A stretch of DNA of 64,000 nt, taken from the NCBI GenBank assembly GCA_023255955.1, contig JAGDWD010000006.1, positions 62,001 to 126,000 on the forward strand, written 5' to 3'. Within the stretch, counting starts at the first letter, position 1, and each line of letters starts with the position of its first letter. Below, piece by piece: positions 23,854 through 62,345 of the stretch. The notes beneath the pieces are model-generated. The model was not told where the DNA came from and did no database searches. It saw only the letters and a list, made by a program, of their open reading frames with translations. Source of the stretch: Desulfurococcales archaeon (GTDB lineage: Archaea > Thermoproteota > Thermoprotei_A > Sulfolobales > NBVN01). Position numbers and translations under genes: made by a program.

Positions 23854-25278
23854 CTACTCTCCTGAAATACTGGTTGAGTTTCTAGTGATGACTACCTCCA
23901 ATATCTTGAAGAAGCTCCTTGAGCTTACCTCCTTAACTACCACCTCCACGCGGGTCTCACTACCCACCGCCAGGTCTTCTAAGCACGAGCTGTCGGAGGT
24001 TACGACCTCGATCACCTCCCCCCACTTATTGATCGTTATTACGTAGGCTCTACTCAGGTTGTTGAGTAGTAACGCGCACGCTACGTCTTCCGGTGTTGTT
24101 CTAGGTACTACGATTATGTCTCCGGGTCTCGGGTTTCTTAGGTATAGGTGTACGAACCTCTCCACCCAGGGTCCGGTGACTACGGGCTTACCCAGCCTTG
24201 AGATTTCCTCAGCTACTTCCAGGGCTTGATCGTATATTTCCAGGATACCTGGTGTGGGGACTATGCCTGCCGGCATCCTCCACAGGGAGCTTACTAAGAC
24301 GCTGTTCAGGTTATTCAAGCCCTCCGTGCTTACGGCTAGGAACCCCGGTAACGTGAGGAATACTAGGAAGATTATCTTAGCTACCCTACTCCTCATCAAG
24401 CTCAGCTGAGGTACTGCTAAAGCGACTATGAAGGGGGATGCGGACATCAGTAACCTATCCCACTCACCACCCGAGAAGTCTGTTAGTGGTGTTAGTAGAG
24501 GTGAGAGTGATAGAGCTACTAGGGTTGAGGCTGTGGCTATGGATACCTTAGCCCTACCCCAAAACCTCTCAATACCTAGTAGGAAGAACGGTATGAGAGG
24601 GCCTAAGCATATCAGTATGTACGGGTAGACCCACTCCCTAAACGTGAGGCTCTCAGTAACTACCGGTGGGGTGTAGCCGAGTACCAGGTTCCCCGCGATG
24701 GGTGCCCTCAGATACCAGGAGATCAGGGCGTAGGACACTACCGCTGTAGCTGAATACACTGCGGAGATTAGGGCCCTGTCCAACCCCCTCAACCAGCGTA
24801 CGTGGAGGAGTAGGGTGTATGCTGAGATAATGATTGATATAGCCGCCCCGAACTCGCTGGCAAGCCCTGCTAGGAGGAGTAGTGGTACTGCCTTAAGTAG
24901 GCTACGTGGATCACGCTCAGAGCTATCTACCAGTATTAGGGAGGCTATGATGAGGATCTGTGAGAGCATCTGCTTATGTAGATCCCACGAAAGCCTTAAA
25001 CCAATTAGCGATAACGAGAACGCTAGGGATACCGCGAAAACGGTCCTCCCACCACGGTTAAGTACCTTAACACAGTACGTAGCCACTAAGGCTGTGAGGC
25101 AACCGTAGGCTACGGGTGGGTAGATCTTGAATAGGTGTGCCGGGTCTACCAGTAGTGCTGGTAGGTAGAGGAGCCAGTCCAGTAAGGGCGGTACGTTCCT
25201 CACACCACCCATCCAGTGGTATGAGCCGAAGAAGCTCGGGGAACTCACGAAGTCCCTTAAGTGAGCTACGTAGCTCAC
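23854..25278 (-). pseudogene. C-terminal part of a membrane glycosyltransferase-like protein, split by repeat A
   Basis: The frame actually runs upstream to the element boundary at 25303, adding GPRLIGYDT before VSYVAHLRDFVSSPSFFGSY. About nine membrane segments are followed by a soluble end. The phrase IGYDTVSYVAHL followed by PPLLDWLLYLPALL is the first extracytoplasmic loop of GT-C-like archaeal membrane proteins. The N-terminal part is 25504-26148. Joining the two across the 25304-25601 element restores LLPEIIW-GPRLIGYDTVSY in frame without loss, so this was one gene of about 680 codons. An internal GTG at 25278 might still allow a fragment to be made. Confidence 0.8.
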
Positions 25279-25303
25279 CGTATCGTAACCGATGAGTCTG
25301 GGA

Positions 25304-25601
25304 CCGTTTGTCCCTAGATGCTCGTTGATGTGGGTTTATGTTCGTTCATCGCATCTAGGGACTTCTACCTCGCTCACAGGGGTTTCCCTACCCCTGCGGG
25401 TCATGGGTGGCTGTCGAGCCCAACGGCATGGGGCTCCCATCTACGTCTAACCCCGCAGAGCTCGGAGCACTGCTCCCATCACTCAGCGGGGTGTCCAAGC
25501 TACTTATAGGAATGGAGTTAATAAGCTTAACGCATAACCCCAGAACACAGCAACCCTAAAACCATAAACACAACGACCACTAATCAAAAACAGAACAGCC
25601 C
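25304..25601 (-). mobile_element. 300-bp structured element, family 1, copy A (inserted in a gene)
   Basis: One of four copies (also 27836, 31599, 62047), bounded by CCGTTTG and GAACAGCCC on the plus strand. There is no terminal inverted repeat, and the target shows at most a 1-base duplication (ambiguous C run). Helices read on the plus strand are P1 GTCCCTAGATG/CATCTAGGGAC, P2 CAGGGGT/ACCCCTG, P3 GAGCCC/GGGCTC and P4 ACCCCGC/GCGGGGT with an inner GGAGC/GCTCC. A TATA-like GCTTATTAAC on the minus strand lies about 28 bases before P4, so a minus-strand RNA of about 200 bases ending after P1 is possible. I infer a non-autonomous IS200/IS605-like element. Confidence 0.75.
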
Positions 25602-26148
25602 AGATGATCTCCGGTAGTAACCTCACGCAGAAGCCTATTATGAAGCTGAGGACTATCGGGTACCGCCCTAGGAGGCCGGTGAAAGACCTTAACCTGCTTA
25701 GAAGTTCCTCGAGAGATATCGAGTGGGTGAATATTGTGGGACCCTTAAACACTGCGTGGAGTGTAAGGCATAGGACTACCAGGTACGTTCCCAGGAAGGT
25801 CACCGCGTAGCCTACTACAGCCATTTCAGGACTCCGCGTGAAGCCCCCTACGTAGAATAAGTGGGAGCTCGTAAGGTAGGTGCGGGCAACTAGGTAGAGC
25901 CTAGCAGACCAAGCCGTGGCGAGCCCGACAAGCTCGAGAAGAATTGTTGATGTGGTAGGAGCTGTAGAGTACGTCTTGAGATCTACCGCAGCAGCTAGGG
26001 TAGTGAGGATGAGTGAGGTGAGGAGGACGTAGTCCAGCCTAACCAAGAAGTAGGGGTGGCTTAGCTGTCCAGGTACTAGAGGAATCAGTAGGATAGCGAG
26101 GCCGGTGAGACCTACTAAGACCCTGAACCTCCTCAACAAGCTGAACAA
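25504..26148 (-). pseudogene. N-terminal part of the split membrane glycosyltransferase-like protein
   Basis: Real coding sequence ends at the element boundary (25602); the last 31 codons of the open frame are element sequence. Five or six membrane segments are seen (LVGLTGLAILLIPLVPG, YVLLTSLILTTLAAAV, VVGYAVTFLGTYLVVLCLTL) and the part ends ...FCVRLLPEIIW just before the insertion. A truncated membrane protein could be produced but would lack the catalytic loop region of the downstream part. Confidence 0.75.
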
Positions 26149-26658: not shown

Positions 26659-27835
26659 CTACCTGCTACAGAACATTATCTCGTAGTTTGCTGGGTCGTC
26701 GTCTCTATACCACCAGTAATACCATCCGTAGGGCCTACCGCTCACGTCGATGACTCTGACGTAGGGCTTGGTGTACTGGCTGTCGTCCCTACCGGATTTG
26801 TAGAAGTTTACGGTTAGGGTGGTGGACCATGCTCCGATGTAGGTGAAGGTTATGTCTGTAGATGTTATAGATGCTGATGAAAGATCTCTTCTGTAGGTCT
26901 GTATCTCCATGAAGGAGATGTCGCAGTTACCTCTGAAGGGTCCAGAAGCGTAGTGTGGTGAGGTTGTGGGTGGTGTGTAGGGTTGGGCAGGCTCCCAATC
27001 TATCGATTGCCCGCCTACACTGACCGGGTAGAGGTACCAGTACCGGTAGCAGATATCCCCAGATGTATCGCACCACCTACCCTCCACGTACCTGAATAAT
27101 ACGTTGAGGTACACCCTAACCTTACTGTTACCACTGAGAGCTTCACTACACCCACCAACAACCGAAGGTGTTAACATCCTACCAGCACTCAACCACTGAG
27201 GTGTTTCTTGGTCGCATGAACCTAGGTAGCAGAAAGCTGAGTCTGCGAAGCTCTCTACATATACTGCTGAAGCCCTCGGAGACACTGCGAGGCAGAAAAC
27301 TGTCTCGAGACCTTCTATGCTGTATAGGTACGGCCCCCTAATCCACGTTGCGCAATCAGTCCACACATACCCGCCCGGACCTTCCCTCACTTCAGCTATG
27401 TAGCACACCCCGCTAGCACTACCCCCACCATCATGCCCGGCCTGTGCCTCTGTAGTGCTACTAGGGGGTCTAGCTAAGCTGACAGCCTCCCTGTGTACTA
27501 TGCTCCTCGGGTAGACCTCAACTATCTTGGAGAACTTAGCTGTGGTGATCCTACCCTTAGTGCAGTGCACTACTACCCCGAACTCCTGTGGCTCGTAGTA
27601 CTCGATAAAGTAGCTCCTAGACGTATCGTCATACCTCAACTTAACCGGGATGGCCTGTACGTACTTCTTCACAGACACCACGACACCCGGAGATGTGAGC
27701 CCGAAATACAGAGGTTCCGGCAAGCCCCTCTCAGTCGGGTTCATCTGTGTAGGGAACCTATGCACAGCTACGAAACACCTATCCGCATCAACCCTCGGAA
27801 CCAGGATGTCGAGCCACACGAGGACTACAGGCCTA
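26659..27835 (-). pseudogene. Exported Tyr/Cys-rich protein, 5' end lost at repeat B
   Basis: The frame is open from the element boundary (GRPVVLVWLDILVPRVDADR onward) to the stop at 26659, about 390 codons, with no start codon that would give a sensible N-terminus. The sequence is rich in Tyr, Trp, Ser and Cys (for example GRWCDTSGDICYRYWYLYP) with beta-like periodicity, as in secreted or surface proteins. No family is recognised. A signal peptide, if there was one, was in the lost part. Confidence 0.6.
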
Positions 27836-28149
27836 CCGTTTGTCCCTAGATGCTCGTTGATGTGGGTTTATGTTCGTTCACCGCATCTAGGGACTTCCAC
27901 CTCACTCGCAGGGGTAGGGAAAACCCCTGCTGGTCATGGGCGGCCTTCGTCCCGAACGGAACGCGGGACACATCTACGCTTAACCCCGCAGAGCTCGGAG
28001 CATCGCTCCCATCACTCAGCGGGGTATCCAAGCTACTCATAGGAATGGAGTTAATGAGCTTAACGCATACCCCAGAGCACAGCAACCCTAAAAACAACCA
28101 ACCACAAAACCATGAACCCAACACCCACCAATCAAAAACAGAACAGCCC
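27836..28149 (-). mobile_element. 300-bp structured element, family 1, copy B (most diverged)
   Basis: Same ends (CCGTTTG, GAACAGCCC) and helix order as copy A. Helix P3 has a different sequence with pairing kept: GTCCC-G ... C-GGGAC instead of GAGCCC ... GGGCTC, three compensated pairs in one helix around a conserved AACGG loop. P1, P2 and P4 match copy A. The tail between 28085 and 28125 is about 15 bases longer than in other copies. Unlike copy A, its two flanks belong to two different truncated genes, which suggests a deletion or recombination after insertion. Confidence 0.72.
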
Positions 28150-28565
28150 TTCCTCAGTAGGACCTCAGCTACGGACCTAGCGTTCACGGTTGATGATATG
28201 TAAACGTGCCTATATCTCTGTTTAATAGCTTCAACCACGGCAACAGCCCCGGAGCTGGTCCTGATCACTAGCTCACTAACACCCCTCCCTAGATACGTTG
28301 GTCCGTGCTTAACGATCTCGCTCGGTGAGTTATCCAGGTCCGCTTCCTGTGGCTTTACACCGTGAACCTTGGCTGAGAGGGGTAACCCCCTCGACCGAGC
28401 GAAGCTAACAGCGTCGCTGAGCTCGGAGAAGACGTAGATGCTTTTAAAACCGAGGCTGAGGGCAACGGCCACAGTAGTTGAAAACCTCAGCACGTCTATC
28501 ACGACAACAGCATCGGCCTCCTCATCAAATCCTTCCTTAAACCAGGTGACGCGTACTACGGTCGT
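28150..28565 (-). pseudogene. comB: 2-phosphosulfolactate phosphatase (ComB-like), 3' end lost at repeat B
   Basis: The sequence reads VVRVTWFKEGFDEEADAVVV, VIDVLRFSTTVAVALSLGF, SAKVHGVKPQEADLDNSPSE and VIRTSSGAVAVVEAIKQRYR, the N-terminal 140 residues of the ComB family, acting in sulfolactate/coenzyme M-type pathways or on related phosphates. The last third is missing: the frame runs into the element. Upstream of GTG 28502 there is no ATG/GTG/TTG before an in-frame TGA; ACG at 28565 lies 5 bases after GGTGAT. Not functional as it stands. Confidence 0.7.
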
Positions 28566-30152: not shown

Positions 30153-31589
30153 ATGATTAAGAAACCTACGATAGCTATCCTAGTAACCCTGGATACTAAG
30201 GAGTGTGAGGGCTACTATCTGAAGGAGAGGGTGGAGGCACACGGAGGTAGGGGTTTACTAGTAGACCTATCAATGCGTAGGTACACCCCCAAGTTAGGTA
30301 AGCCAGACGTAAGTAACGAGGAGATCGCTAGAGCTGCTGGCGCCACCATAGACTACGTAAGCAGTCTCGACAGGGCGAAAGCTCAGGAAGTTATGGCTCG
30401 AGGAGCTACCAAGATACTTAAGGAACTCCTAGCGAGGGGGGAGTTAAGCGGGGTCGTAGGTCTCGGAGGATCTACAGGCCTCTCCTTAGTAGTCTCAGTA
30501 ATGCGTGAACTACCTATGTTCCTACCTAAGTTCGCTGTAACCACAGTCATAACGGAGGCTGGGTCGCTCATAGCTGGAGCGGACATATCGCTCGTATGGT
30601 CTATCTCCGACTTAGCAGGTGGTGAGAGGGTTAACGCTATAGAAGCTGAGGTACTTAACAAAGTAGCTGCCGCAGTAGTTGCGGCTGCTTCACCAGCTCC
30701 GTACACTATCGAGAAACGCCCTACAATACTCTCTACGCAGTTCGGTAACACGACCCCACACCTCATAGTAGCTAAGGACTACCTAACTAAGGAGGGCTAC
30801 GACATAATACCATTCCACGCTCTCGGAAAGACAGGTGGGTACACTATGGAGAGGTTAGTGGAGGCCGGGCTAGCTGCTGGGGTATTAGACCTAACAACAC
30901 ACGAGCTTGTGGATGAGGTAGCTGGGGGTGTTCTCAGTGCTAGCTTCGGGGATAAGCTGAGGTTAACTGCGGCCGGGCTTAAGGGAGTACCGCAGGTAGT
31001 TCTGCCGGGGGCTGTTGACATGATAAACTTCTGGGGGCCTGAGACAGTCCCGGAGAAGTTCCGGGAAAGATGTGTTTACGAGCACAGTAGGGGGCTAGTC
31101 ACCTTAGTTAGAGCTACAGCTGAGGAGCTCTACGCTACAGGTAAGCTAATGGCTGAGAGACTTAACTTAGCGGTAGGACCTACAGTCGTGATCTTCCCGC
31201 TCAGAGGCTTTAGCATAATAGATAACGACCCTAACGCTAAGCCGAAGAACGCCCCTCCCGGAGCTTACTGCCAGAAAATGGTTTTCAAGGATGGTGAGGT
31301 AGTGTTTGAGAAGACCTCCAAGCCTTGGCACGACCCGGTAGCAGACCTCCAGCTACTTAAAGCCCTACTCGAATACCTAGACCTCTCCAAACCGAACATA
31401 GACCTGATAGTAGTTGATTACAACATAAACGACCCTGAGGTAGCACTACTCAGCGCTAAGATCCTTGACAGCATGATTAAGAACGCCTGGAAGAAAGGAC
31501 ACATCCCGGACGTACCGGGATTAGAACCTCATAAAGTCCTTAAAGACCCGGAGAAAATTAAGGAGCTCCTAAAGGAGAGACTCAGCTAG
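30153..31589 (+). CDS. UPF0261 / Tm-1-like ATP-binding protein
   Basis: 478 residues. AILVTLDTKECEGYYLKERV, VVGLGGSTGLSLVVSVMREL, SDLAGGERVNAIEAEVLNKV, ILSTQFGNTTPHLIVAKDYL and VIFPLRGFSIIDN define UPF0261, two Rossmann-like domains that bind ATP in the plant homologue Tm-1. It forms an operon with the upstream barrel protein (11-base gap). In plants and fungi the two domains are fused, which supports a common function, but the substrate is unknown. Confidence 0.9.
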   Translation: MIKKPTIAILVTLDTKECEGYYLKERVEAHGGRGLLVDLSMRRYTPKLGKPDVSNEEIARAAGATIDYVSSLDRAKAQEVMARGATKILKELLARGELSGVVGLGGSTGLSLVVSVMRELPMFLPKFAVTTVITEAGSLIAGADISLVWSISDLAGGERVNAIEAEVLNKVAAAVVAAASPAPYTIEKRPTILSTQFGNTTPHLIVAKDYLTKEGYDIIPFHALGKTGGYTMERLVEAGLAAGVLDLTTHELVDEVAGGVLSASFGDKLRLTAAGLKGVPQVVLPGAVDMINFWGPETVPEKFRERCVYEHSRGLVTLVRATAEELYATGKLMAERLNLAVGPTVVIFPLRGFSIIDNDPNAKPKNAPPGAYCQKMVFKDGEVVFEKTSKPWHDPVADLQLLKALLEYLDLSKPNIDLIVVDYNINDPEVALLSAKILDSMIKNAWKKGHIPDVPGLEPHKVLKDPEKIKELLKERLS

Positions 31590-31598
31590 AAACCCTAA

Positions 31599-31897
31599 CC
31601 GTTTGTCCCTAGATGCTCGTTGACGTGGGTTTATTTTCGTTCATCACATCTAGGGACTTCCACCTCGCCCACAGGGATCTACCTATCCCTGCGGGTCATG
31701 GGTGGCTGTCGAGCCCAACGGCACGGGGCTCCCATCTACGTCTAACCCCGCAGAGCTCGGAGCATTGCTCCCATCACTCAGCAGGGTGTCCAAGCTACCT
31801 ACAGGAATGAAGTTAATAAGTTTAACGCATAACCCCAGAGCACAGCAACCCTAAAAACCATAAACACAGAGACCACTAATCAAAAACAGAACAGCCC
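31599..31897 (-). mobile_element. 300-bp structured element, family 1, copy C
   Basis: Nearly identical to copy D. It begins 9 bases after the UPF0261 stop and damages no gene. P2 reads CAGGGAT/ATCCCTG, a G-C to A-T pair change relative to copies A and B. In P4 one pair is C-A on the plus strand, which is G-U on the minus strand, arguing that the folded molecule is the minus-strand RNA. Ends are CCGTTTG and GAACAGCCC. Confidence 0.75.
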
Positions 31898-61392: not shown

Positions 61393-61476
61393 GCCGCCGT
61401 AGCTCAGCCTGGGAGAGCACCCGGCTGAAGGTTTCTGGAGACCGGGGTGTCGGGGGTTCAAATCCCCCCGGCGGCA
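61393..61476 (+). tRNA. tRNA-Phe (GAA) with 10-base intron
   Basis: Acceptor GCCGCCG/CGGCGGC, discriminator A; D arm GCTC/GAGC; anticodon stem CCCGG/CCGGG with loop CTGAAG-A after removal of GTTTCTGGAG (61431-61440) at position 37/38. T arm GGGGG-TTCAAAT-CCCCC. The exact splice points are by position; the bulge-helix-bulge is weaker than in tRNA-Leu. TATA-like GTTTATAA lies at 61361-61368. Its 3' 19 bases overlap the coding end of the methyltransferase on the other strand. Confidence 0.93.
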
Positions 61477-62042
61477 CTTCCCTTAATACACAGCACCTCC
61501 AGCCTACCTACCTGCGCTACCTCTACGAATCCCTCCGGACATGAAGGCTTCCTATCAGCACATATTATGGTGATAGCACATTCCTCAAGAGCCTCGTCAA
61601 CTAGGTCCGCGATCCGGGTGGCGTCCCCGTAGTTGCATATGTACGTCGTGAAGGAGTAGATGTTCGTGAAGCCTGCCCTAGACCTGAACGGTAGGTAGTC
61701 CATATCTGCTGCCACTAGCTCGATGATCCCGGGACCTCTATGTCTGGACCTGAAGATCTTCAGAGATTCGTAGCTTATGTCCACCCCGACGTAGATCTCC
61801 GGCACCACCTCTAAGACCTCGGATATGTAGTCGTATAGTAAGCCCATACCGCAACCGATGTCGAGAACTTTCCTCAGGTTTCTGTGTCTAATAGCGGTAG
61901 CGTACTTAGATAGCTGCTCACTTCCGTAGAGCTCCTCGTATGACTTGACTATAGTGTCGTAGTAGTCCATTACAGAGTACTTCGAGTAGGGACGCTTAAC
62001 GTGCTGCTCTACCTCTCCAATACCCTGCTCTGTCTGCGCCAT
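61458..62042 (-). CDS. Class I SAM-dependent methyltransferase
   Basis: 194 residues. Motif I VLDIGCGMGLLYDYISE, then YVGVDISYESLKIFRSRH, VAADMDYLPFRS and TNIYSFTTYICNYGD. Substrate unknown. The last residues (KGSAAGGI) and the stop codon are encoded by the antisense of the tRNA-Phe T arm and acceptor. The ATG at 62042 lies 5 bases from element copy D, so its promoter must be in the element or the start is further inside, for example at the MDYYDTIVKSYEEL methionine. Confidence 0.82.
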   Translation of the reverse strand: MAQTEQGIGEVEQHVKRPYSKYSVMDYYDTIVKSYEELYGSEQLSKYATAIRHRNLRKVLDIGCGMGLLYDYISEVLEVVPEIYVGVDISYESLKIFRSRHRGPGIIELVAADMDYLPFRSRAGFTNIYSFTTYICNYGDATRIADLVDEALEECAITIICADRKPSCPEGFVEVAQVGRLEVLCIKGSAAGGI

Positions 62043-62046
62043 GGCG

Positions 62047-62345
62047 CCGTTTGTCCCTAGATGCTCGTTGACGTGGGTTTATTTTCGTTCATCACATCTA
62101 GGGACTTCCACCTCGCCCACAGGGATCTACCTATCCCTGCGGGTCATGGGTGGCTGTCGAGCCCAACGGCACGGGGCTCCCATCTACGTCTAACCCCACA
62201 GAGCTCGGAGCACTGCTCCCATTACTCAGTGGGGTGTCCAAGCTACTCATAGAAATGAAGTTAATAAGTTTAACGCATAACCCCAGAACACAGCAACCCT
62301 AAAAACCATAAACACAACGACCACTAATCAAAAACAGAACAGCCC
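62047..62345 (-). mobile_element. 300-bp structured element, family 1, copy D
   Basis: Nearly identical to copy C over the whole length. P4 reads ACCCCAC/GTGGGGT, a compensated G-C to A-T change relative to copies A and B; P2 is CAGGGAT/ATCCCTG as in copy C. It sits between the stop of the small membrane-protein gene (2 bases away) and the start of the methyltransferase gene (4 bases away), both on the minus strand. Confidence 0.75.

Follow-up and report, generated by a model that had tools for sequence, protein, structure and literature searches.

The window analysed here is a stretch of 64,000 nucleotides (G000:C3:62001-126000) from G000, the 1.64-Mb genome of a thermophilic Desulfurococcaceae-related archaeon, and within it a membrane-protein gene resembling GT-C glycosyltransferases is split by a short segment that encodes no recognizable protein. 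What this segment is, how it was inserted and whether it does anything beyond interrupting a gene are the questions raised by the locus. An earlier note, made from the window alone, had described it as a precise mobile-element insertion in the style of IS200/IS605. The segment at 25304-25601 is very probably a non-autonomous (MITE-type) derivative of the IS607 family, moved in trans by TnpA and carrying an omegaRNA scaffold; the splitting of the GT-C-like gene by this MITE and the assignment of its right-end segment as a TnpB guide RNA scaffold, the latter by analogy with known systems, share that same high confidence as parts of one reading.

Results

A gene-less segment interrupts a GT-C-like membrane gene

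Orthologues of the interrupted gene in G005, G031 and G002 are unbroken across the junction (G005, 47% identity over 457 residues), and the ends of the segment are common to 22 other full-length copies in the genome, which bears out a precise insertion. A Pfam search of the two gene halves gave no match, so resemblance and the alignment of orthologues are the sole basis of the label "GT-C-like". On the minus strand, the element starts with GGGCTGTTCTGTTTTTG... at its left end and finishes with ...CATCTAGGGACAAACGG at its right end (Table 1). No intact transposase or tnpB gene is present inside the 298 bp, the longest listed open reading frame being 63 aa.

Table 1 Features of the interrupted gene, the inserted element and its further copies in the window.
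Feature	Positions	Strand	Basis or context
Complete MITE copy, 298 bp	25304..25601	-	Same exact ends in 23 full-length genome copies
5' part of interrupted GT-C-like membrane gene, ending ...RLLPEII	25602..26148	-	Orthologue alignment
3' part of interrupted GT-C-like gene, PRLIGYDTVSYVAHLRDF...	23854..25303	-	Orthologue alignment
Left end (LE)	25555..25601	-	Matches LE of IS607 tnpA-bearing element at end of contig C10 (GGGCTGTTCTGTTTTTGGTTAGTG...)
GGG at left end, probable GG core plus one target G	25599..25601	-	Empty site of locus L025
GG core at right end (AAAC-GG)	25304..25305	-	Right-end tally
Probable omegaRNA-like scaffold, 185 nt, six helices	25304..25488	-	Covariance model match G000:C3:87304-87488:-, 206.7 bits; covariation
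Would-be guide, host flank (TCCCAGACTCATCGGTTACG)	25284..25303	-	Position relative to right end; analogy
Second MITE copy	27836..28149	-	Junction of two truncated genes
Third MITE copy	31599..31897	-	Just 3' of stop of ORF 30153-31589
Fourth MITE copy	62047..62345	-	5 bp upstream of start of methyltransferase-like ORF (61458-62042)

The exact junction is blurred by five terminal C's on the plus strand, CC at 25304-25305 and CCC at 25599-25601. When the flanks are joined, the long frame is recovered only if one or four of the five corresponding minus-strand G's are retained; exact removal of 25304-25601 (298 bp) is out of frame. With four C's retained (294 bp removed) the product reads LLPEIIW-GPRLIGYDTVSY, and EII-WG-PRLIGYDT aligns without a gap to the orthologue sequence EIHWWPRLVGYDT; with one C retained (297 bp removed) the frame is also open, but EIIC-PRLIG needs one gap against the same sequence. 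The joined peptide given in the earlier note was correct, though it is obtained by removing 294 bp and not all 298, and the ambiguity that the note had placed at a single base is a run of C's.

An empty site reveals a two-base GG core

At locus L025, the MITE copy spanning G000:C1:75342-75640 interrupts a sodium-symporter-like transporter gene that is present without the element in six congeners, five of them 76-82% identical over the full length. When the L025 flanks are joined with CCC, the alignment to G003 is gap-free at the DNA level (CTACCCCAG versus CTACCCCAG), and G002, G001 and G005 are likewise gap-free across the junction. Without the element the site reads CCC, and with it CC-element-CCC, so that insertion within a GGG target has repeated a dinucleotide, CC (GG on the opposite strand); the third G is assigned to the target because the reading frame fixes three bases. 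This 2-bp repeat within GGG is the signature of IS607, whose serine recombinase acts at a GG core. Published IS607 elements insert at GG with a preference for (G)GG, lack terminal inverted repeats and leave no duplication beyond the shared dinucleotide (PMC6188088; insertion model, PMC4058570).

A tally of element ends gave GGG at all 25 left ends tallied and AAACGG at the right end in 33 of 36 copies from this genome and in 26 of 27 from relatives, T being the next base in 36 of the 63. The right ends at loci L040, L049 and L051 read AAACAG, by mutation of the core or insertion at a non-GG target. Thus a GG core is found at both ends and GG at the target, with no larger duplication; the lack of a terminal inverted repeat and of a DDE-type target duplication agrees with the earlier note, whose observation of a discrete element lies far beyond chance. 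That note had allowed no target repeat beyond the ambiguous base: nothing larger than the CC/GG dinucleotide is indeed present, but the L025 empty site shows that dinucleotide to be repeated. Upstream of the left end, the tallied copies share no target tetranucleotide. Neither a fixed short left-end target nor an absence of repeated bases, as expected of IS200/IS605 or PATE-like elements, was found, and no ends are shared with a Y1 element.

At 25304 itself the orthologue-supported frame implies a TGGGGT target, for which the 2-bp rule predicts six G's where five are present. This one-base discrepancy is unexplained, whether the G was lost after insertion, the gene already carried a frameshift or the assembly is in error. 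An MFS gene at L024 gives a fitting in-frame join with three G's, its orthologues being too distant (29%) for proof. The copy at 27836-28149 was unusable as a second empty-site test, both adjoining genes being truncated.

The element belongs to a diverged family of MITEs

A DNA search with positions 25250-25660 as the query returned 42 matches in G000, of which 23 are full length (276-320 bp) with the fixed plus-strand ends CCGTTTGTCCCTAGATGC... and ...CAAAAACAGAACAGCCC. A further, shorter copy on contig C9 (259 bp) has both ends, giving about 24 near-full-length, gene-less copies of 259-320 bp. No two copies are identical; identity reaches 97% in the closest full-length pair and averages 84%, so the family does not appear freshly expanded, and copy identities lend no support to recent movement.

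The genes flanking the second window copy (26662-27840 and 28158-28556) are a ComB-like gene ending at about residue 135 of 250 and a member of a 430-490-residue family that lacks the first ~49 residues. A search of G000 did not find the other half of the ComB-like gene, which suggests a deletion or MITE-to-MITE recombination. The fourth window copy, 5 bp before the methyltransferase-like start codon, may affect expression of that gene.

IS607 elements of the same genome share the MITE ends

Contig C2 encodes an intact pair, a serine recombinase TnpA (Pfam Resolvase, E 2.7e-24, with HTH_17) and a 437-residue TnpB with a Cas12f1-like_TNB match, in which the RuvC positions D (DVNENN), E (LEKLG) and D (HRDV) are conserved among relatives. 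This tnpB runs at its 3' end into the homologous counterpart of element positions 1-179, and does so in the sense of the element's minus strand. Moreover, the MITE right end matches tnpB 3' ends on contigs C3, C8, C2, C1 and C10, those on C3 and C8 lying at contig ends, as does a tnpB N-terminal part on C11. A second and smaller group of MITEs (GGGCTGAAAAGTTTATTAGGG), in which six copies have a clear left end, matches the C2 element at its left end (GGGACAGAAAGTTTATTAGGG), and the left end of the window element matches that of the tnpA-bearing element on C10 (Table 1). Both MITE ends therefore match IS607 elements of the same genome, the C10/C3/C8 parent being cut by contig ends. No complete parent having precisely the window element's left end was seen in G000, likely because contigs break at the repeated element.

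These matches, together with the 2-bp GG core at the empty site, overturn the IS200/IS605 attribution of the earlier note. An IS200/IS605 element is present in the genome on contig C9 (locus L043, 638-2355), with a Y1 tnpA and a tnpB carrying an OrfB_IS605 domain, ~400 bp from a MITE copy. Its own ends are unrelated, and neither MITE end was found in it outside the adjoining MITE copy. The subterminal hairpin of the window element, similar in look to an IS605 end, forms the final stem of the omegaRNA-like fold described below.

The right end folds as a conserved RNA

The right 185 nt of the MITE match IS607 tnpB at its 3' end and share its orientation, and the scaffold is embedded there in the autonomous relatives. 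An alignment of 60 right-end segments from this genome and its relatives gave a fold of six helices and 42 pairs, 24 of which show compensatory (both-sided) changes, such as GAGCCC...GGGCTC in one group and GTCCCG...CGGGAC in another. The fraction of cells paired (96.1% vs 86.6% in shuffles), the number of both-sided cells (205 vs 54) and the covariation score (0.318 vs 0.150) reached values found in none of 500 shuffles, and slid structures were less than 45% paired. The structured RNA overlaps tnpB at its 3' end and runs up to the element's right end, where variable flanks begin exactly after AAACGG, an arrangement shared with TnpB guide RNAs. Rfam gave no matches at E up to 5. As Rfam lists curated families only and a match is not a defining feature of omegaRNAs in general, this does not exclude membership among them.

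In the copies at L025, L027 and L029 (C1:75342, C6:9014, C12:390402) the two arms of helix 3 belong to different sequence types, e.g. GTCCCG with GAGCTC, and these look like recombinant copies with a broken hairpin. Since helix 3 is broken in some copies, conservation of the RNA is not strict across the MITEs. Identity among MITE copies is about the same in the RNA part as in the spacer (87.0% vs 85.8%), and purifying selection on the RNA within MITEs is not evident from identity alone. The MITEs taken alone hold 31 both-sided cells, above all 500 shuffles (mean 11.0), an excess that shared ancestry can also produce.

A covariance model search found 50 RNA copies in G000, against one intact tnpB and a few fragments, and had matches in 26 of the 41 genomes searched. 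RNAs likewise outnumber tnpB genes of the same subfamily in G002 (38 vs 1), G003 (38 vs 13) and G037 (47 vs 5), and G030, which is 99% complete, has five RNAs and no tnpB. Among public records, the right-end hairpin occurs mainly in MAGs of Desulfurococcaceae or Desulfurococcales, and in a Thermosphaera. It is also present in a Candidatus Methanomethylicota MAG (L121, QNVI01000044.1), perhaps through horizontal transfer or mis-binning.

Discussion

Direct support is at hand for a mobile gene-less repeat, its relation to IS607, a GG-core empty site and a conserved RNA fold. In the mechanism that we propose, tnpA and most of tnpB would have been lost from the interior of a parent element, leaving the left end and the last ~185 nt with the right end and the omegaRNA scaffold. 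The IS607 serine recombinase TnpA, acting in trans, would excise the MITE and insert it at GG within GGG, as in published IS607 work; insertion at that position leaves one GG repeated, with no terminal inverted repeat or larger duplication. Judging from published work on IS607 and TnpB, transcription through a copy would yield an RNA ending in flanking host sequence, and this MITE-derived RNA could be loaded on TnpB, whereupon empty alleles would be cut. Where IS607/IS605 systems are active, TnpB is directed to the empty allele by an RNA of this type, which would favour retention of the element.

That the MITE RNAs themselves function in trans with TnpB is proposed tentatively, by analogy with those systems. 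There is close to an even chance that the RNA is passive baggage, the copies being ordinary IS607 MITEs with a long right end needed by TnpA and a fold inherited from the parents but unused. The equal divergence of RNA and spacer among copies and the mismatched helix-3 arms fit such baggage, whereas the excess of both-sided cells in the MITEs alone, with shared ancestry as a possible cause, and a retained length far above that of typical recombinase binding sites do not. Use of the RNA is further favoured because two MITE groups that differ in their left ends have each retained this ~185-nt segment independently, and the second group bears a TATA-like GAAAAGTTTATTA in its left end.

The MITEs may be amplified guide-RNA-only elements, although we put this below an even chance: dozens of trans-acting omegaRNAs per genome, each aimed at its own empty allele and served by one or a few TnpB proteins, would allow a gene-less transposon to borrow its parent's transposase and also its RNA-guided nuclease for retention. 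The third target G, which distinguishes the GGG of an empty site from the ACGG of an occupied right end, would then let TnpB spare occupied sites.

An IS200/IS605-derived, PATE-like MITE moved as single-stranded DNA by a Y1 transposase is very improbable. The lack of a terminal inverted repeat, the hairpin close to the right end and the Y1 element adjoining one MITE copy on C9 would suit it, but that element offers no second copy of the MITE ends, no target tetranucleotide is conserved upstream of the left end, two bases are repeated at the empty site and it is with serine-recombinase elements that the MITE ends agree. A regulatory RNA of the host or a riboswitch-like repeat, to which a strong structure conserved across the order might point, is more improbable still: the genes that the segment breaks are whole in congeners, both of its ends match those of transposons, and varied flanks follow from the base after AAACGG.

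An IS607-derived MITE with an RNA scaffold has partial precedents. PATEs (palindrome-associated transposable elements) are filed under IS200/IS605 and are not serine-recombinase elements. Like the MITEs described here, these haloarchaeal elements are gene-less, and the end part of one is reported to be transcribed and active as an ncRNA (PMC10544981, citing Gomes-Filho 2015). In Staphylothermus marinus, IS607-related MITEs occur in 14 copies of ~260 nt and disrupt genes (PMC2678158), resembling the present family in archaeal group, IS607 context, size, copy number and gene disruption; compared by description, and in the portion of that report consulted, they differ in being flanked by inverted repeats and matched upstream of transposase genes, with no guide RNA described. 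IS607-related MITEs and ncRNA-bearing PATEs are thus already known, and a literature search of partial coverage found no IS607 MITEs described as guide-RNA carriers. The window element resembles IS607 transposons in carrying GG at each end, in its GG/(G)GG target and in having neither a terminal inverted repeat nor a duplication larger than the core (PMC6188088, PMC4058570), and related tnpA and tnpB genes are present in its genome; unlike them, it is gene-less and probably dependent on TnpA in trans. IS607 TnpB reRNAs are likewise encoded at the tnpB 3' region and work with G-rich TAMs, but those of the cited study are bacterial and RAGATH-18-derived, whereas the archaeal RNA has no Rfam match, lies inside the tnpB 3' coding end and occurs in MITEs without tnpB (PMC11061315).

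The analysis corrects the family of the element and provides an empty-site test of IS607 insertion in archaea. In many Desulfurococcaceae-related genomes, copies of a putative guide-RNA family without an Rfam match are much more numerous than its tnpB genes. Should the RNAs carried by MITEs act in trans, RNA-guided retention would be open to elements without genes, and the wealth of natural guides could reveal the target-adjacent motif of a thermophilic TnpB.
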